A DNA stretch of 39,823 bases, taken from NCBI RefSeq assembly GCF_900112255.1, contig NZ_FOLE01000015.1, positions 1-39,823 of the forward strand, given 5' to 3'. The notes below the pieces were generated by a model. The model searched no databases. It was not told where the DNA came from and saw nothing but the letters and a program-made list of their open reading frames with translations. The DNA is from Flexibacter flexilis DSM 6793 (GTDB taxonomy: Bacteria > Bacteroidota > Bacteroidia > Cytophagales > Flexibacteraceae). Below, piece by piece: positions 1-39,823 of the stretch (its first letter is position 1; every line of letters begins with the position of its first letter). The position numbers and the translations under genes were made by a program.

Positions 1-55
1 TTTTTCAGTGCCTCGCTTTTCAAAATCTTAACCCCTCTCTCGTTTAATCGGGGTG

Positions 56-87
56 CAAAGGTCAGAAACTTTTTTTTAACTTCCAAA
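56..87 (-). promoter_or_regulatory. Promoter copy 1 of the 159-bp array
   Basis: On the minus strand: TTTG (84-87), a 20-base spacer and GACCTTTG (56-63). This fits the Bacteroidota consensus TTTG / TAnnTTTG with one change, T to G at the first base of the -7 box. Upstream is an A/T-rich stretch (88-120) like an UP element. Transcription would leave the window at its left edge. Confidence 0.65.
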
Positions 88-214
88 TCTTTTTCGAAAA
101 TTTTTAAAGTTTTTTCAAGTCTCTACTCATATCAATCGCTCAACACAAGCTCCTTTTCCTTTTTTCAAGACTTTAAGCCGCTCTCGTTAGAACCGCTCTT
201 CCTTAATCGGGTTG

Positions 215-246
215 CAAAAGTCAGCGTTTTGTTTTTATTCTCCAAA
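215..246 (-). promoter_or_regulatory. Promoter copy 2 of the 159-bp array
   Basis: On the minus strand: TTTG (243-246), a 20-base spacer and GACTTTTG (215-222), followed by GCAACCCGATTAAGG. It has the same geometry as copy 1 and an A/T-rich upstream stretch. Confidence 0.65.
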
Positions 247-373
247 TATTTTCGCAAATATTTTTTGAGTTTTTTTATCGCCCTCTATAACTCGTTAGCT
301 AACAACATTATAAAGCTCTTTTACTACTACATAGAACCACCTTCTTTCAAGCCGCCCCTCCTTTATCGGGCTG

Positions 374-405
374 CAAACATCCCCCCTTTTTCTCTATTTT
401 CCTAA
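374..405 (-). promoter_or_regulatory. Promoter copy 3 of the 159-bp array (most diverged)
   Basis: On the minus strand: TTAG (402-405), a 20-base spacer and GATGTTTG (374-381), followed by GCAGCCCGATAAAGG. The spacer has a run of six G where the other copies have none. It is the copy furthest from the presumed transcribed gene and the weakest match. Confidence 0.5.
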
Positions 406-475
406 TATTATCCCAAATTATTTTTAAAAATATTATCAATAACCTCATCTTTAATGAGTTATAAAAGAAAGATTT

Positions 476-1465
476 TTAGGGATACGACGGAATTTCTACA
501 AAAGCAGCCATTTGGTAGTTGCCGACGAGTGAAAGAACCCATTGATTAGGATTTCGGGTGGTTTTAGAAAAGCTTTGTAAAGCTGTTTTTTCCTTCAAAT
601 TATCCTGTGGCATAAAACATGGCACAAATTGGTGTAATTGGTGGTCTGTGAGCTTTTCGACAGAAATAAACTGGTCGTTTTCTATTATTCCCAAAAAATC
701 TAAAGCAAAAAACAACCCTTGCGTCGGTAACATGATACACTGCTCACTAATATCAAATTCCAAAACTTCTTGGTTTTTACCGACCTCCATCACTAAATTC
801 TCTAACAAAACATCTTTGGAAGCAGGTTTTTCGTCAAAATCGGGCTTATGTGCGTGCAGACGCACCAATATTTTAGTGTTTTGGACAGGTACAGTTACTG
901 TAATCGGGTCGCTAAAGCCTGTTTCGTCTTTGAGTATCGTATAATTTCTGTCGTCGCTTATCAAAAACTTGACTTTGCTCACCTTCACCGAACGCCTATA
1001 AGTATTATTTACTCGCACGGCAATAGAGAAATCATCGTGCATTAAGCCATGGAGTTTCCCTTTATACCAAAAGCCTGTCCATTCGCGCTTGCCAATCTTG
1101 CCGAATTTGTCAGCAGCCCCCATCTTCTCGCGTTTGCGAACTGGCGTTTGAGTAACTGTTACTTCCTTTAATAAGAGATTTGATGGCACAAGAAAAATCG
1201 TGTCGGGCAATGTGGCGGCGGCAAACACTACTTTATTATAGCCAACCGACGAAAAGCGAATAGAATCCGAAGATGTGGCTTTGAGGCTGAAAGCTCCCGC
1301 AAAATCCGTATAAGTGCTTTGTTGTGGCGAAGAAACCGAAACCAACGGTAAAGGCTTGCGGGTGGCTTGGTCAAAAACATGCGCCGAATACGCTGTAATA
1401 TGTGTTTGCGCCTGCGCGGTAAACTTCCCTCCTATTATAATAAGCAATAGAATGAGTTTTTTCAT
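476..1465 (-). CDS. Secreted protein with carboxypeptidase-regulatory-like domain
   Basis: A 329-residue exported protein. It starts with a classical signal peptide (MKKLILLLIIIGG, cleavage after AQA near residue 19). Residues about 24-92 look like a CarboxypepD_reg-like beta-sandwich: a variable start, TDFAGAFSL, then a line ending in FSSVGYNKVVF. In Bacteroidota this domain often sits at the N-terminus of outer-membrane or periplasmic proteins. The remaining 230 residues have beta-rich composition and no family I recognise; there is no TonB-dependent barrel and no T9SS tail. It is transcribed toward the 159-bp promoter array and diverges from the next gene. A good -7 box lies only 8 bases before the start codon, so the message may be nearly leaderless. 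Confidence 0.85.
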   Translation of the reverse strand: MKKLILLLIIIGGKFTAQAQTHITAYSAHVFDQATRKPLPLVSVSSPQQSTYTDFAGAFSLKATSSDSIRFSSVGYNKVVFAAATLPDTIFLVPSNLLLKEVTVTQTPVRKREKMGAADKFGKIGKREWTGFWYKGKLHGLMHDDFSIAVRVNNTYRRSVKVSKVKFLISDDRNYTILKDETGFSDPITVTVPVQNTKILVRLHAHKPDFDEKPASKDVLLENLVMEVGKNQEVLEFDISEQCIMLPTQGLFFALDFLGIIENDQFISVEKLTDHQLHQFVPCFMPQDNLKEKTALQSFSKTTRNPNQWVLSLVGNYQMAAFVEIPSYP

Positions 1466-3440: not shown

Positions 3441-5966
3441 ATGGCGCAAAATACATACAAAAACACGCCCAAAGAACCCCAAGTGGAAAATCCAGCGGCG
3501 GCGAGTAAAAGCAAAGCAAAAAGCGTAAAATCCATTAAAATAAACCCAACCTTTTTGCAAGACCCCAAATTCAAATTCTCGTTGGGTTTTGCCTTAATGT
3601 TGTTTTCATTTGCAGTCCTAACAGCTTTATTTTCAGCTTTATTTACAGGCAAAGCCGACCAAAGCGTTGTAGAAAGTTTGTGGAACGGCACGCTCCGCGA
3701 GTCGGGCAAAGAAGCCGAAAACTGGCTCAAGTTGGGCGGTGCAATCATTGCATATTTTTTAATGTACAAATGGTTTGGTATTTGTTCGTTTTTTGTTCCG
3801 CCATTACTTTTTGCGGCAGCCTATCGCGCCATTTTCAAGAAAAGTTTGATTAACCTCAACCGCATTACACGCTTTGCCGTGTTTATGGCTTTGTGGGTGG
3901 GCTCGTTGTTGGGCTATGTGGTGTATTTGTCGGAAGCCGAAACCAGTTTTGGATTTTTGAGCGGCGGTATCGGCTACGAAATAGCTTTCTTTTTCCATGA
4001 TATGATTGGCTGGGGAACGTGGCTTTTGTTGGTGTTTAGCGGCGGTTTGTTTATGCTTTATTTCTTCGATTTGTCCGTACCAACTGGTAAACCCAAAGAA
4101 GAAAAACAACCAACACCCGAACCTGTCATTACCGAAAAACCAATTATTACGACTTCTGTGCCACTAATAGACGAAGAAGAATTTGAGAAAAATCAGCAAG
4201 CTGAAGAATTAGACGAAGAGACGGACGAAGAAAATTTGGAAATCTTAGACCAACAACCTCCCGTAACGCCTGTTTTACCAGAAACACCTAAAATTCCAGC
4301 AGAACCCGCCTTTACAGTAACCAATACACCAACGCAGGCGCAAGAAGAAGACGAGCAAGACAAAGAACCTGAGTTTGTGATAGAAAAAACGCCGACAGAA
4401 ATCCTGCTCGACGATGACGACTACCAACGTGCCGCCCTAAACGCTGGCGTTGGAGACTATGACCCAAAACTGGATTTACCGTCTTACGCCTACCCTATTT
4501 TGGATTTGTTGCAACCGCATACGGGCAATAACGTACACATCAACAACGAGGAACTGGCCGCCAACAAAGATAAAATCGTGGATACGCTCAGCCAATACGG
4601 CATTGCGATTTCCAACATCAAAGCAACGGTAGGGCCTACGGTTACGCTTTACGAAATCGTGCCTGCACCAGGGGTTCGTATTTCCAAAATCAAAAGCCTT
4701 GAAGATGATATTGCCTTGAGTTTGGCCGCGTTGGGCATCAGGATTATTGCCCCAATCCCTGGCAAAGGCTCAATCGGTATAGAAGTTCCTAACAAAAACC
4801 GCGAAATGGTTTCGATTCGCTCAGTGCTAGCCAACGAACGTTTCTTGAAATCAGATAAAGAATTGCCAGTTGTTTTGGGTAAAACCATTTCTAACGAAGT
4901 GCTTATCATTGACTTAGCCAAAATGCCTCACTTGCTCATGGCGGGTGCGACTGGGCAAGGTAAATCGGTGGGTTTGAACGTATTATTGGCTTCATTGCTG
5001 TACAGCAAACACCCTTCGCAACTCAAATTTGTGTTGGTGGACCCCAAAAAAGTAGAACTTTCGCTTTTCAGCAAAATAGAACGCCATTTCTTGGCCGCAC
5101 TACCCAACTCGGAAGAGGCCATTATTACCGATACTAAAAAAGTAGTGAATACACTCAACTCGCTTTGTATCGAGATGGACACGCGTTACGATTTGCTCAA
5201 AGAAGCCAATTGCCGCAACCTTCGCGAATACAATACCAAATTTGTGGAACGTAAACTTAACCCCGAAAAAGGACACAAGTTTATGCCTTACATCGTGTTG
5301 GTTATTGACGAGTTGGCGGATTTGATGATGACGGCGGGCAAAGAAGTAGAACAACCTATCGCACGTTTGGCACAATTGGCGCGTGCCATCGGTATTCACT
5401 TGGTAGTGGCCACGCAACGCCCTTCGGTAAACGTTATTACGGGTATTATCAAAGCCAACTTCCCTGCGCGTTTATCGTTTAGAGTAACCTCGAAAGTCGA
5501 TTCACGCACGATTTTGGACACTGGCGGCGCGGAACAATTGGTCGGTCAAGGGGATATGCTTTTCTCGCAAGGTTCTGACCTTATTCGTTTGCAATGTCCG
5601 TTTGTGGACACGCCCGAAGTGGAGCGTGTTTGTGATTTTATCGGCGGACAACGTGGCTACGATTCGGCCTATCTATTGCCCGAATACGAAGGCGAAGACG
5701 GCGGCTCAGACAAAGCTGAATTTGACCCATCCGAACGCGATGCACTTTTTGAGGAAGCGGCACGTACCATCGTGCTACACCAACAAGGCAGTACTTCTTT
5801 GATTCAACGTAAATTAAAACTTGGTTACAACCGTGCGGGTCGCCTCATCGACCAACTCGAATCGGCGGGCATCGTCGGGCCATTCGAGGGCAGCAAAGCC
5901 CGCGAAGTGTTAATCAAAGACGAGTACGCGCTGGAGCAACTTTTACGCAAAATTTCAGAGAAATAA
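3441..5966 (+). CDS. ftsK: DNA translocase FtsK
   Basis: An 841-residue septal DNA pump that segregates chromosome termini and activates XerCD at dif. The N-terminus has four hydrophobic segments (about residues 48-70, 95-130, 137-160 and 178-212). A Glu/Pro-rich linker follows (about 215-330), much shorter than in E. coli. The RecA-like motor carries Walker A GATGQGKS (residues 502-509) and a Walker B strand ending in Asp623-Glu624 (VLVIDELADLMM). A C-terminal winged-helix gamma domain (about 768-828, with GSTSLIQRKLKLGYNRAGRL) reads KOPS sites. Its stop is separated from the LD-carboxypeptidase start by only 3 bases, so the two are probably co-transcribed. Confidence 0.96.
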   Translation: MAQNTYKNTPKEPQVENPAAASKSKAKSVKSIKINPTFLQDPKFKFSLGFALMLFSFAVLTALFSALFTGKADQSVVESLWNGTLRESGKEAENWLKLGGAIIAYFLMYKWFGICSFFVPPLLFAAAYRAIFKKSLINLNRITRFAVFMALWVGSLLGYVVYLSEAETSFGFLSGGIGYEIAFFFHDMIGWGTWLLLVFSGGLFMLYFFDLSVPTGKPKEEKQPTPEPVITEKPIITTSVPLIDEEEFEKNQQAEELDEETDEENLEILDQQPPVTPVLPETPKIPAEPAFTVTNTPTQAQEEDEQDKEPEFVIEKTPTEILLDDDDYQRAALNAGVGDYDPKLDLPSYAYPILDLLQPHTGNNVHINNEELAANKDKIVDTLSQYGIAISNIKATVGPTVTLYEIVPAPGVRISKIKSLEDDIALSLAALGIRIIAPIPGKGSIGIEVPNKNREMVSIRSVLANERFLKSDKELPVVLGKTISNEVLIIDLAKMPHLLMAGATGQGKSVGLNVLLASLLYSKHPSQLKFVLVDPKKVELSLFSKIERHFLAALPNSEEAIITDTKKVVNTLNSLCIEMDTRYDLLKEANCRNLREYNTKFVERKLNPEKGHKFMPYIVLVIDELADLMMTAGKEVEQPIARLAQLARAIGIHLVVATQRPSVNVITGIIKANFPARLSFRVTSKVDSRTILDTGGAEQLVGQGDMLFSQGSDLIRLQCPFVDTPEVERVCDFIGGQRGYDSAYLLPEYEGEDGGSDKAEFDPSERDALFEEAARTIVLHQQGSTSLIQRKLKLGYNRAGRLIDQLESAGIVGPFEGSKAREVLIKDEYALEQLLRKISEK

Positions 5967-10048: not shown

Positions 10049-10069
10049 GTATTAATGCTTTATGTATGT

Positions 10070-10195
10070 GCCTCCATAAACTTCTGTATAAGCGTCCTAA
10101 ACTCTTGTATAGCCTCCACGAACTTCTGTATAAGCGTCCTGAACTTCTGTATAGCCTCCACAAACTTACATTATGCCTTCTTAAACTCTTGTATA
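10070..10195. repeat. 21-bp tandem array (six units) in the pcm-Nudix gap
   Basis: Six contiguous 21-bp units start at 10070, 10091, 10112, 10133, 10154 and 10175. Odd units begin GCCTCCA, even units 2 and 4 begin AGCGTCCT, giving a 42-bp higher order. Unit 5 is the most diverged, and a decayed seventh unit may follow to 10216. The minus strand, read from an ATG at 10203, gives heptads such as E-A-I-Q-E-F-R and T-L-I-Q-K-F-V, broken by one stop (10171-10173) in unit 5. The array lies after the pcm terminator and before the Nudix gene. The rest of the 342-bp gap holds only that terminator and A/T-rich DNA. Confidence 0.85.
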
Positions 10196-10332
10196 GGCTT
10201 CATTTAAAGCAGATATGCAGAATTATATGTATTTTTTGGCTTAACAATTAGTTTTTTTGTACCGACAAACTTATCTTTTAGGGCATTTATTAAATATCTC
10301 CTCATTTACATTTTTACATTTAGAATAAAATA

Positions 10333-25709: not shown

Positions 25710-26192
25710 GAGGCCGTGAAAGAGTTGTAAGAGGCCGTGAAAGAGTTGTAAGAGGCCGTGAAAGAGTTGTAAGAGGCCGTGAAAGAGTTGTAAGAGGCCG
25801 TGAAAGAGTTGTAAGAGGCCGTGAAAGAGTTGTAAGAGGCCGTGAAAGAGTTGTAAGAGGCCGTGAAAGAGTTGTAAGAGGCCGTGAAAGAGTTGCAAGA
25901 GGTCGTGAAAGAGTTGCAAGAGGTTGTGAAAGAGATGCAAGAGGTTGTGAAAGAGATGCAAATGGTCGTGAAAGAGATGCAAGAGGTTCTGAAAGAGTTG
26001 TAAGAGGTCGTGAAAGAGTTGTAAGAGGTCGTGAAAGAGATGCAAGAGGCCGTGAAAGAGATGCAAGAGGTCGTGAAAGAGTTGTAAGAGGTCGTGAAAG
26101 AATTGCAAGAGGTCGTGAAAGAGTTGCAAGAGGTCGTGAAAGAGTTGCAAGAGGTCGTGAAAGAGTTGCAAGAGGTCGTGAAAGAGTTGCAA
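25710..26192. repeat. 21-bp tandem array, 23 full units, upstream of copA
   Basis: Twenty-three contiguous 21-bp units. Read on the plus strand, a unit codes Glu-Ala-Val-Lys-Glu-Leu-stop or Glu-Val-Val-Lys-Glu-(Leu/Met)-Gln, with CAA/TAA as the last codon. Units 1-8 are identical (all TAA), units 20-23 are identical (all CAA), and units 9-19 vary (AAG-ATG forms, one ATG in place of GAG, one CTG in place of GTG). A decayed unit follows and the plus frame closes at 26230-26232. There are no spacers. It fills most of the gap between the AraC-type regulator and copA; the other parts of that gap (25620-25683 and 26193-26258) are A/T-rich with no gene. Confidence 0.95.
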
Positions 26193-26258
26193 GAGATTCA
26201 GTGGATGAAAGCTCGGCCATATTTATTTACCTAACATTTATTTTATCTAACAATCGCC

Positions 26259-39654: not shown

Positions 39655-39744
39655 AGAAAAGCCTTTGAGTAAGTATATCCTTGCAAAATAAAAACATGGG
39701 CTTGTTTTTAAAAACTTATTTAGGGAATGGTATAAACAGCAAAG

Positions 39745-39771
39745 AGGGTCATCTCTTGTGAAGATGACCCT
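39745..39771 (-). terminator. Terminator of the rRNA operon
   Basis: AGGGTCATCT (39745-39754) pairs perfectly with AGATGACCCT (39762-39771) around a 7-base loop. On the minus strand it comes 9 bases after the 5S gene and is followed by CTTTGCTGTTTA. Confidence 0.85.
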
Positions 39772-39780
39772 GTGCTTAAT

Positions 39781-39823
39781 AAGGTTGGCAGCTACCTACT
39801 CTCCCACGTGTGACCGCAGTACC
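39781..39823 (-). rRNA. rrf: 5S ribosomal RNA, 3' end (partial)
   Basis: On the minus strand the sequence ends GTGGGAGAGTAGGTAGCTGCC, the conserved helix near the 3' end of bacterial 5S rRNA (E. coli: GCGAGAGTAGGGAACTGCC). About 43 of some 110 bases are in the window; the rest is beyond the right edge. The exact 3' end is uncertain by a few bases (about 39781-39785). Confidence 0.9.

Follow-up and report, generated by a model that had tools for sequence, protein, structure and literature searches.

Leaders with several promoters are an established feature of rRNA (rrn) operons, with two promoters in E. coli and four in series in Streptomyces. As summarized for E. coli, rrn promoters P1 and P2 are accompanied by an AT-rich UP element and a GC-rich discriminator, with control by ppGpp and initiating nucleotides (PMC4696680). 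Bacteroidota promoters are described with TTTG at -33 and TAnnTTTG at -7 (PMC7366714, PMC9723704), the former drawn from 23 B. fragilis promoters (PMC7366714) and the latter spanning -12 to -5 (PMC9723704). No paper on the rRNA promoters of the order Cytophagales turned up in the literature searched, most subscription journals lying outside its coverage.

Here we analyse a promoter array at the left end of a 39,823-nucleotide stretch of Flexibacter flexilis DSM 6793 (hereafter the window), which is the whole of contig C15 in a 4.25-Mb, 48-contig genome. On sequence evidence, we read the locus as the leader of a leftward rRNA operon carrying four tandem promoters of the Bacteroidota main-sigma type, a leader that probably precedes at least three rrn operons; we put the probability of this reading at about 0.85. 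The array shares both boxes and a spacer of 20 with Bacteroidota main-sigma promoters but departs from them in having G for the first T of the -7 box (position -12) and CAnCCC after it. It resembles E. coli P1-P2, as that account presents them, in its tandem promoters within an rrn leader, A/T-rich upstream tracts and G+C-rich discriminator, and differs in consisting of four copies of one sequence with Bacteroidota boxes. Streptomyces leaders are alike in promoter number, whereas their sequence and sigma consensus are unrelated. Neither the array nor a link between G at -12, CAnCCC and ribosome-synthesis promoters was found in the literature searched.

Three promoter copies at a 159-bp step

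Three promoter-like sites of the form TT[T/A]G-N20-GAnnTTTG-CAnCCCGAT lie on the minus strand at window positions 47-405, near the left contig end. The features, in window coordinates, are as follows.

365..405, minus strand: P1, the outermost promoter; TTAG at 405-402, 20-base spacer, GATGTTTG at 381-374, discriminator CAGCCCGAT at 373-365
406..435, minus strand: A/T-rich tract upstream of P1, putatively UP-element-like by position
206..246, minus strand: P2; TTTG at 246-243, 20-base spacer, GACTTTTG at 222-215, discriminator CAACCCGAT at 214-206
247..275, minus strand: A/T-rich tract upstream of P2, putatively UP-element-like by position
47..87, minus strand: P3; TTTG at 87-84, 20-base spacer, GACCTTTG at 63-56, discriminator CACCCCGAT at 55-47
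88..112, minus strand: A/T-rich tract upstream of P3, putatively UP-element-like by position
1..95, no strand assigned: contig-end overlap, the join to the rrn operon; exact match to the ends of contigs C25, C22 and C9

An earlier note on this DNA had described three promoters repeated every 159 bp, and their spacing is exactly 159 and 159. Its two remarks on the boxes hold as well: TTAG replaces TTTG in the outermost copy only, and G replaces the first T of TAnnTTTG in all three.

Motif and periodicity are both beyond chance, since shuffled sequence reproduces neither. The exact block GAnnTTTGCAnCCCGAT occurs three times in the window, at P1-P3 only, and not once in 400 dinucleotide shuffles of it. 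The 450-bp leader matches itself best at a shift of 159, scoring 0.543 against a maximum of 0.469 in 1000 shuffles. Between copies, clear similarity starts at the A/T tract before the -33 box, a recurrent companion of the promoter copies, and reaches some 25 bases beyond the discriminator; elsewhere it drops to background, so that the conserved part is the promoter and not the whole 159-bp unit. With P3 as reference, the other two window copies match at 72% and 63%.

Two other assignments were discarded. Promoters for a rightward gene are ruled out because both the boxes and the nearest gene (476-1465) point leftward; promoters of the sigma-70 type (TTGACA/TATAAT) are ruled out because none was found in window 1-700. 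The gene at 476-1465, just upstream of the array and co-directional with it, encodes 329 amino acids with a CarboxypepD_reg-like domain. Some 70 bp separate its stop from the P1 -33 box, and a search for an intrinsic terminator between the gene and the array found none. Elsewhere in the window, a 21-base unit is repeated in tandem at 25710-26195 (23 copies, 94% matches), and a shorter tandem array with a 21/42-base period occupies 10063-10203.

The array leads into an rRNA operon

An exact 95-base overlap joins the array to 16S rRNA. A genome search located a single 16S gene, at 3695-5205 on the minus strand of the 5,591-bp contig C25, where the minus-strand order is 16S-tRNAIle-tRNAAla-23S-5S. 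The final 95 bases of C25 are identical to the opening 95 of the window, and to those of C22 and C9 read in reverse. The earlier note had proposed a multi-promoter leader of a leftward rrn operon, and this join bears it out: just left of the window, where a protein gene would have spoken for something else, stands 16S on the minus strand. The window's other end gives a matching picture. Its last 95 bases (39729-39823) are the first 95 of C25 and take in the end of 5S with the hairpin that follows, which places the window between two rrn operons, both leftward.

The same leader recurs in this genome. A leader search returned five places, all in C15, C22, C9 and C25, and the leaders of C22 and C9 are 93% and 90% identical to the window leader over 486 and 451 bp. 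In each of the three leaders found, P1, P2 and P3 recur at two steps of 159 bp; the search for this unit in other rrn leaders of the genome, suggested in the earlier note, thus gave a positive result. Homology between the window leader and the other two stops near the A/T tract upstream of P1; the gene flanking the leader in C22 and C9 points away from it. Three contigs sharing one 95-base end probably reflect a repeated rrn operon that the assembler collapsed, and on that reading the genome would have three or more rrn operons, every one with a leader of its own.

A fourth copy, P4, lies outside the window at 5433-5470 on the minus strand of C25, 113 bp nearer 16S, so the 159-bp step is not kept throughout the array. 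The 16S start follows about 240 bp beyond the P4 -7 box. All four copies have a -33 box (TTAG in P1) and a 20-base spacer, and in all four the first -7 position is G in place of consensus T. Between P4 and 16S, 146 nt before the gene, a boxA-like GTTCTTTGA is a candidate antitermination site; a second match lies in the 16S-23S spacer, and the same pattern matched only one of five Emticicia leaders (L014). The 16S leader and trailer are able to pair, according to a prediction made with no shuffle control.

Outer copies, P1 above all, could be decaying relics of tandem duplication, with only the inner one or two promoters working. P1 is indeed the copy least like the others, with its TTAG and a run of G in the spacer. 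Yet all three leaders agree in the boxes, 20-base spacer and discriminator of P1 despite variable surroundings, and TTAG -33 boxes recur in Emticicia arrays; we regard decay as unlikely. The P2 boxes, too, are identical in C22 and C9, and those of P3 in C22, C9 and the end of C25. Three things can be read directly from the assembled DNA: the array, its place before 16S-tRNAIle-tRNAAla-23S-5S, and the fact that it recurs both within the genome and in related genera.

Related arrays keep the boxes at different steps

Rrn leaders of Emticicia, another genus of Cytophagales, are among the closest counterparts in the survey below. They have the same boxes, a spacer of 20, GAnnTTTGCAnCCCGAT and two to four tandem copies before 16S, but their steps, where read, are 92-117 bp and not 159. 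In family f10 the copies of an array stand 103 to 121 bp apart, and the 159-bp step of this genome is the longest seen. At four Emticicia loci (L015, L028, L031 and L032) the innermost copy is TAnnTTTG with no CCC, which recalls the division between P1 and P2 in E. coli; unlike these, the innermost copy of the Flexibacter flexilis array keeps G.

Likeness extends into the early transcribed stretch, about 15-25 bases past the -7 boxes, where this genome and Emticicia share AGAGAG after CCCGATT. The 16S identity between the families that share it is about 83%. The 16S of this lineage shares no more than 84% identity with any other full-length 16S gene compared; against that of one f1 sister, identity is 85% over 805 bases.

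The copies resemble one another just beyond the boxes too, where a promoter alone would call for no likeness, and this could suggest a leader repeat of another kind (RNA-processing, structural or dispersed). We consider this very improbable: the unit is found in this genome only in rrn leaders, its conserved blocks and their 20-base spacer fit the -33 and -7 consensus in the literature, and the boxes persist in other species whose steps differ widely from those here.

T at -12 prevails in ordinary upstream regions and scorable tRNA promoters

G at -12 is not shared by stable-RNA genes at large. We sampled 30 tRNA loci among those listed (46 tRNA matches), taking as promoter a TTTG-N19/20 match within 150 bases. 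T stood at -12 in 9 of 9 distinct arrays with a scorable promoter, the remaining tRNA loci having no strict match. The earlier note had suggested that the shared G might mark stable-RNA promoters; this did not survive, as all nine scorable tRNA arrays have T and the promoter of a ribosomal-protein gene, bL28, has G. What rrn and tRNA genes do share is the C-rich discriminator. Over six discriminator positions, mean G+C is 4.5 in four rrn copies, 4 at bL28 and 3.7 in nine tRNA arrays, against 2.3 for 29 ordinary promoters, some of them chance matches; the rrn discriminators are G+C-rich as in E. coli P1-type promoters.

Ordinary upstream regions favour T. Across 1,021 of them, drawn from 2.06 Mb, T at -12 occurred 29 times in sense and 8 times in antisense orientation, and G 5 versus 2. 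Counts over the whole genome, which is mostly coding, gave 109 GA sites versus 45 for the reversed control and 201 TA sites versus 68; both exceed the control, so this count alone would not single out T. By these sequence matches, then, T is the -12 base of ordinary upstream regions and of those tRNA promoters that could be scored. The genome has 13 GANNTTTGCANCCC sites, 11 of which fall in rrn leaders.

Ribosomal-protein genes add a mixed picture. At L220 (G000:C12:13815-13994), bL28 is preceded by TTTG-N19-GATATTTG-CACTCCG, G-type like the rrn promoters. Our search with E. coli ribosomal-protein queries, over part of the genome, yielded no more than bL21, bL27 and tsf. In front of bL21 stands TAGCTTTG; tsf has GAGATTTG with no clear -33 box. 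Weak tufA and fusA matches were set aside as other GTPases on account of low identity.

The earlier note had also taken the common G to predate the duplication. This is plausible and not required: a shared constraint explains G equally, because G also occurs at bL28 and at rrn of other families.

G at -12 recurs before ribosome-synthesis genes in the phylum

Exact matches to the long pattern are rare and concentrate on translation genes. Across 84,980 genomes we found 38 stretches, 26 of them outside coding sequence, and 24 of these 26 precede rRNA (16, four of them presumed), ribosomal-protein (7) or tRNA (1) genes. Emticicia supplies 14 of the 16 rrn-leader stretches; with so many matches from one genus, the counts are not independent. 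The 16S start lies within the locus in seven of the 16. L031 ends at the 16S start, L033, L045 and L010 each share an overlap with a contig from the same strain that bears 16S, and L015 was assigned by its likeness to L031. The four presumed cases (L012, L019, L025 and L038) rest on contig ends; L012 and L019 have tandem copies, and a suffix test did not join these two to a 16S contig of their species. The ribosomal-protein sites, identified by Pfam, are bL28 four times, uL3, bS16 and bL35. The two upstream sites before other genes precede a DHH protein (L043) and a ComEC-like protein (L011), the latter site also lying inside an open frame. The remaining twelve stretches are inside open frames and include all nine from outside Bacteroidota; L042, which lies in an 87-aa open frame and has no gene found after it, is counted among these twelve coding matches.

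The tRNA case is L018 (1-300), from a Chitinophagaceae MAG, where the promoter of tRNA-Leu is G-type (GATATTTG-CACCCCGAT), whereas the tRNA promoters scorable in Flexibacter flexilis have T.

Within the order, the shorter pattern TTTGN{19,20}GANNTTTGCANCCC occurs in 56 of 390 genomes at no fewer than 100 places, versus 2 for the reversed pattern. Among the 30 order-wide loci listed, 22 have bL28 as next gene (by translation), three are rrn leaders and five lie at other places; the rrn leaders are that of this genome (L136) and two presumed from contig ends (L145 and L146). An Rfam scan found no RNA family in 20 loci: the two non-rrn sites of the Flexibacter flexilis genome, 16 loci on the bL28 side and two presumed rrn contig ends.

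Selecting loci by protein, not by promoter, gives the frequency of G at bL28. We took the 41 best-scoring bL28 loci, 40 of them scorable (L216 yielded no start). The -7 box begins with G in 30 of the 40 (f11 1, f12 12, f19 16 and this genome 1) and with T in 10 (nine f1 sisters and one f22 locus); five f12/f19 loci and four f1 loci were scored by the -7 box alone, having no -33 box that passed the stricter pattern.

Rrn promoters elsewhere in the order are mostly T-type. Scanning 900 bases or fewer before 16S in 18 other genomes with a readable 16S start, we found nine T-type, one G-type and one weak A-type, and no match in seven. The G-type genome (G140) also has a T-type site further up, and G087, G025 and G069 have three T-type sites in one rrn leader. 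Among ten genomes of f1 sisters, one (G138) gave a 16S, a fragment; ahead of this fragment, CATCTTTG is paired with TTGG at a spacer of 18, and a GATCTTTG higher up is paired with TGTG but lacks a C-rich stretch. Both rrn and the unlinked bL28 promoter carry G in this genome and in f12 genus g77.

These distributions could arise if G at -12 were a neutral inherited variant, spread by duplication and gene conversion among rrn leaders, its likeness to bL28 being a coincidence of lineage. Rrn promoters of several groups in the order use T, the f1 sisters have T at bL28, and rrn copies within one genome are plainly related. Neutrality is nonetheless hard to square with G at bL28 in f11, f12 and f19 as well as at both unlinked promoters in this genome and g77, with the concentration of exact matches in the phylum on translation genes, or with the predominance of T in ordinary upstream regions. 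We judge neutrality unlikely, while leaving it an appreciable share of probability. Taken at the level of sequence, G at -12 is a frequent, lineage-dependent trait of ribosome-synthesis promoters and not an obligatory one, and its combination with CAnCCC is concentrated on rRNA, bL28 and single cases of other ribosomal proteins.

A proposed link between promoter sequence and growth

Our best reading is a ribosome-synthesis promoter signature, amplified in tandem here, whose activity and regulation we infer. RNA polymerase has a footprint of about 80 bp. Because the steps of 92-159 bp exceed one such footprint, each copy could load polymerase independently, and all four transcripts would run on into 16S; we hold both to be very likely.

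How output might be set is more speculative. The off-consensus -12 base and the C-rich discriminator may give short-lived open complexes; as at E. coli rrn P1, the initiating nucleotide and ppGpp would then couple output to growth. By analogy with that promoter, open-complex instability tying output to growth is a proposal that we rate somewhat below an even chance.

A broader version would make GAnnTTTG-CAnCCCGA a distinct Bacteroidota cis-code that distinguishes ribosome-synthesis promoters from ordinary ones and, within this genome, from those of tRNA genes. Its targets would be rRNA, the bL28 operon and single cases of uL3, bS16 and bL35-bL20. Such a code would tie the output of rRNA and selected ribosomal proteins to growth via open-complex instability, with tandem multiplication before rrn in lineages like this one. 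We advance it tentatively, at just short of even odds.

Control of rRNA synthesis in Bacteroidota is little described in the literature that our searches reached. A short signature of rRNA promoters and some ribosomal-protein promoters, one -7-box base off consensus, would make the question of that control directly testable. Tandem arrays with lineage-specific steps may likewise serve as a natural series on what a second, third or fourth rrn promoter adds.
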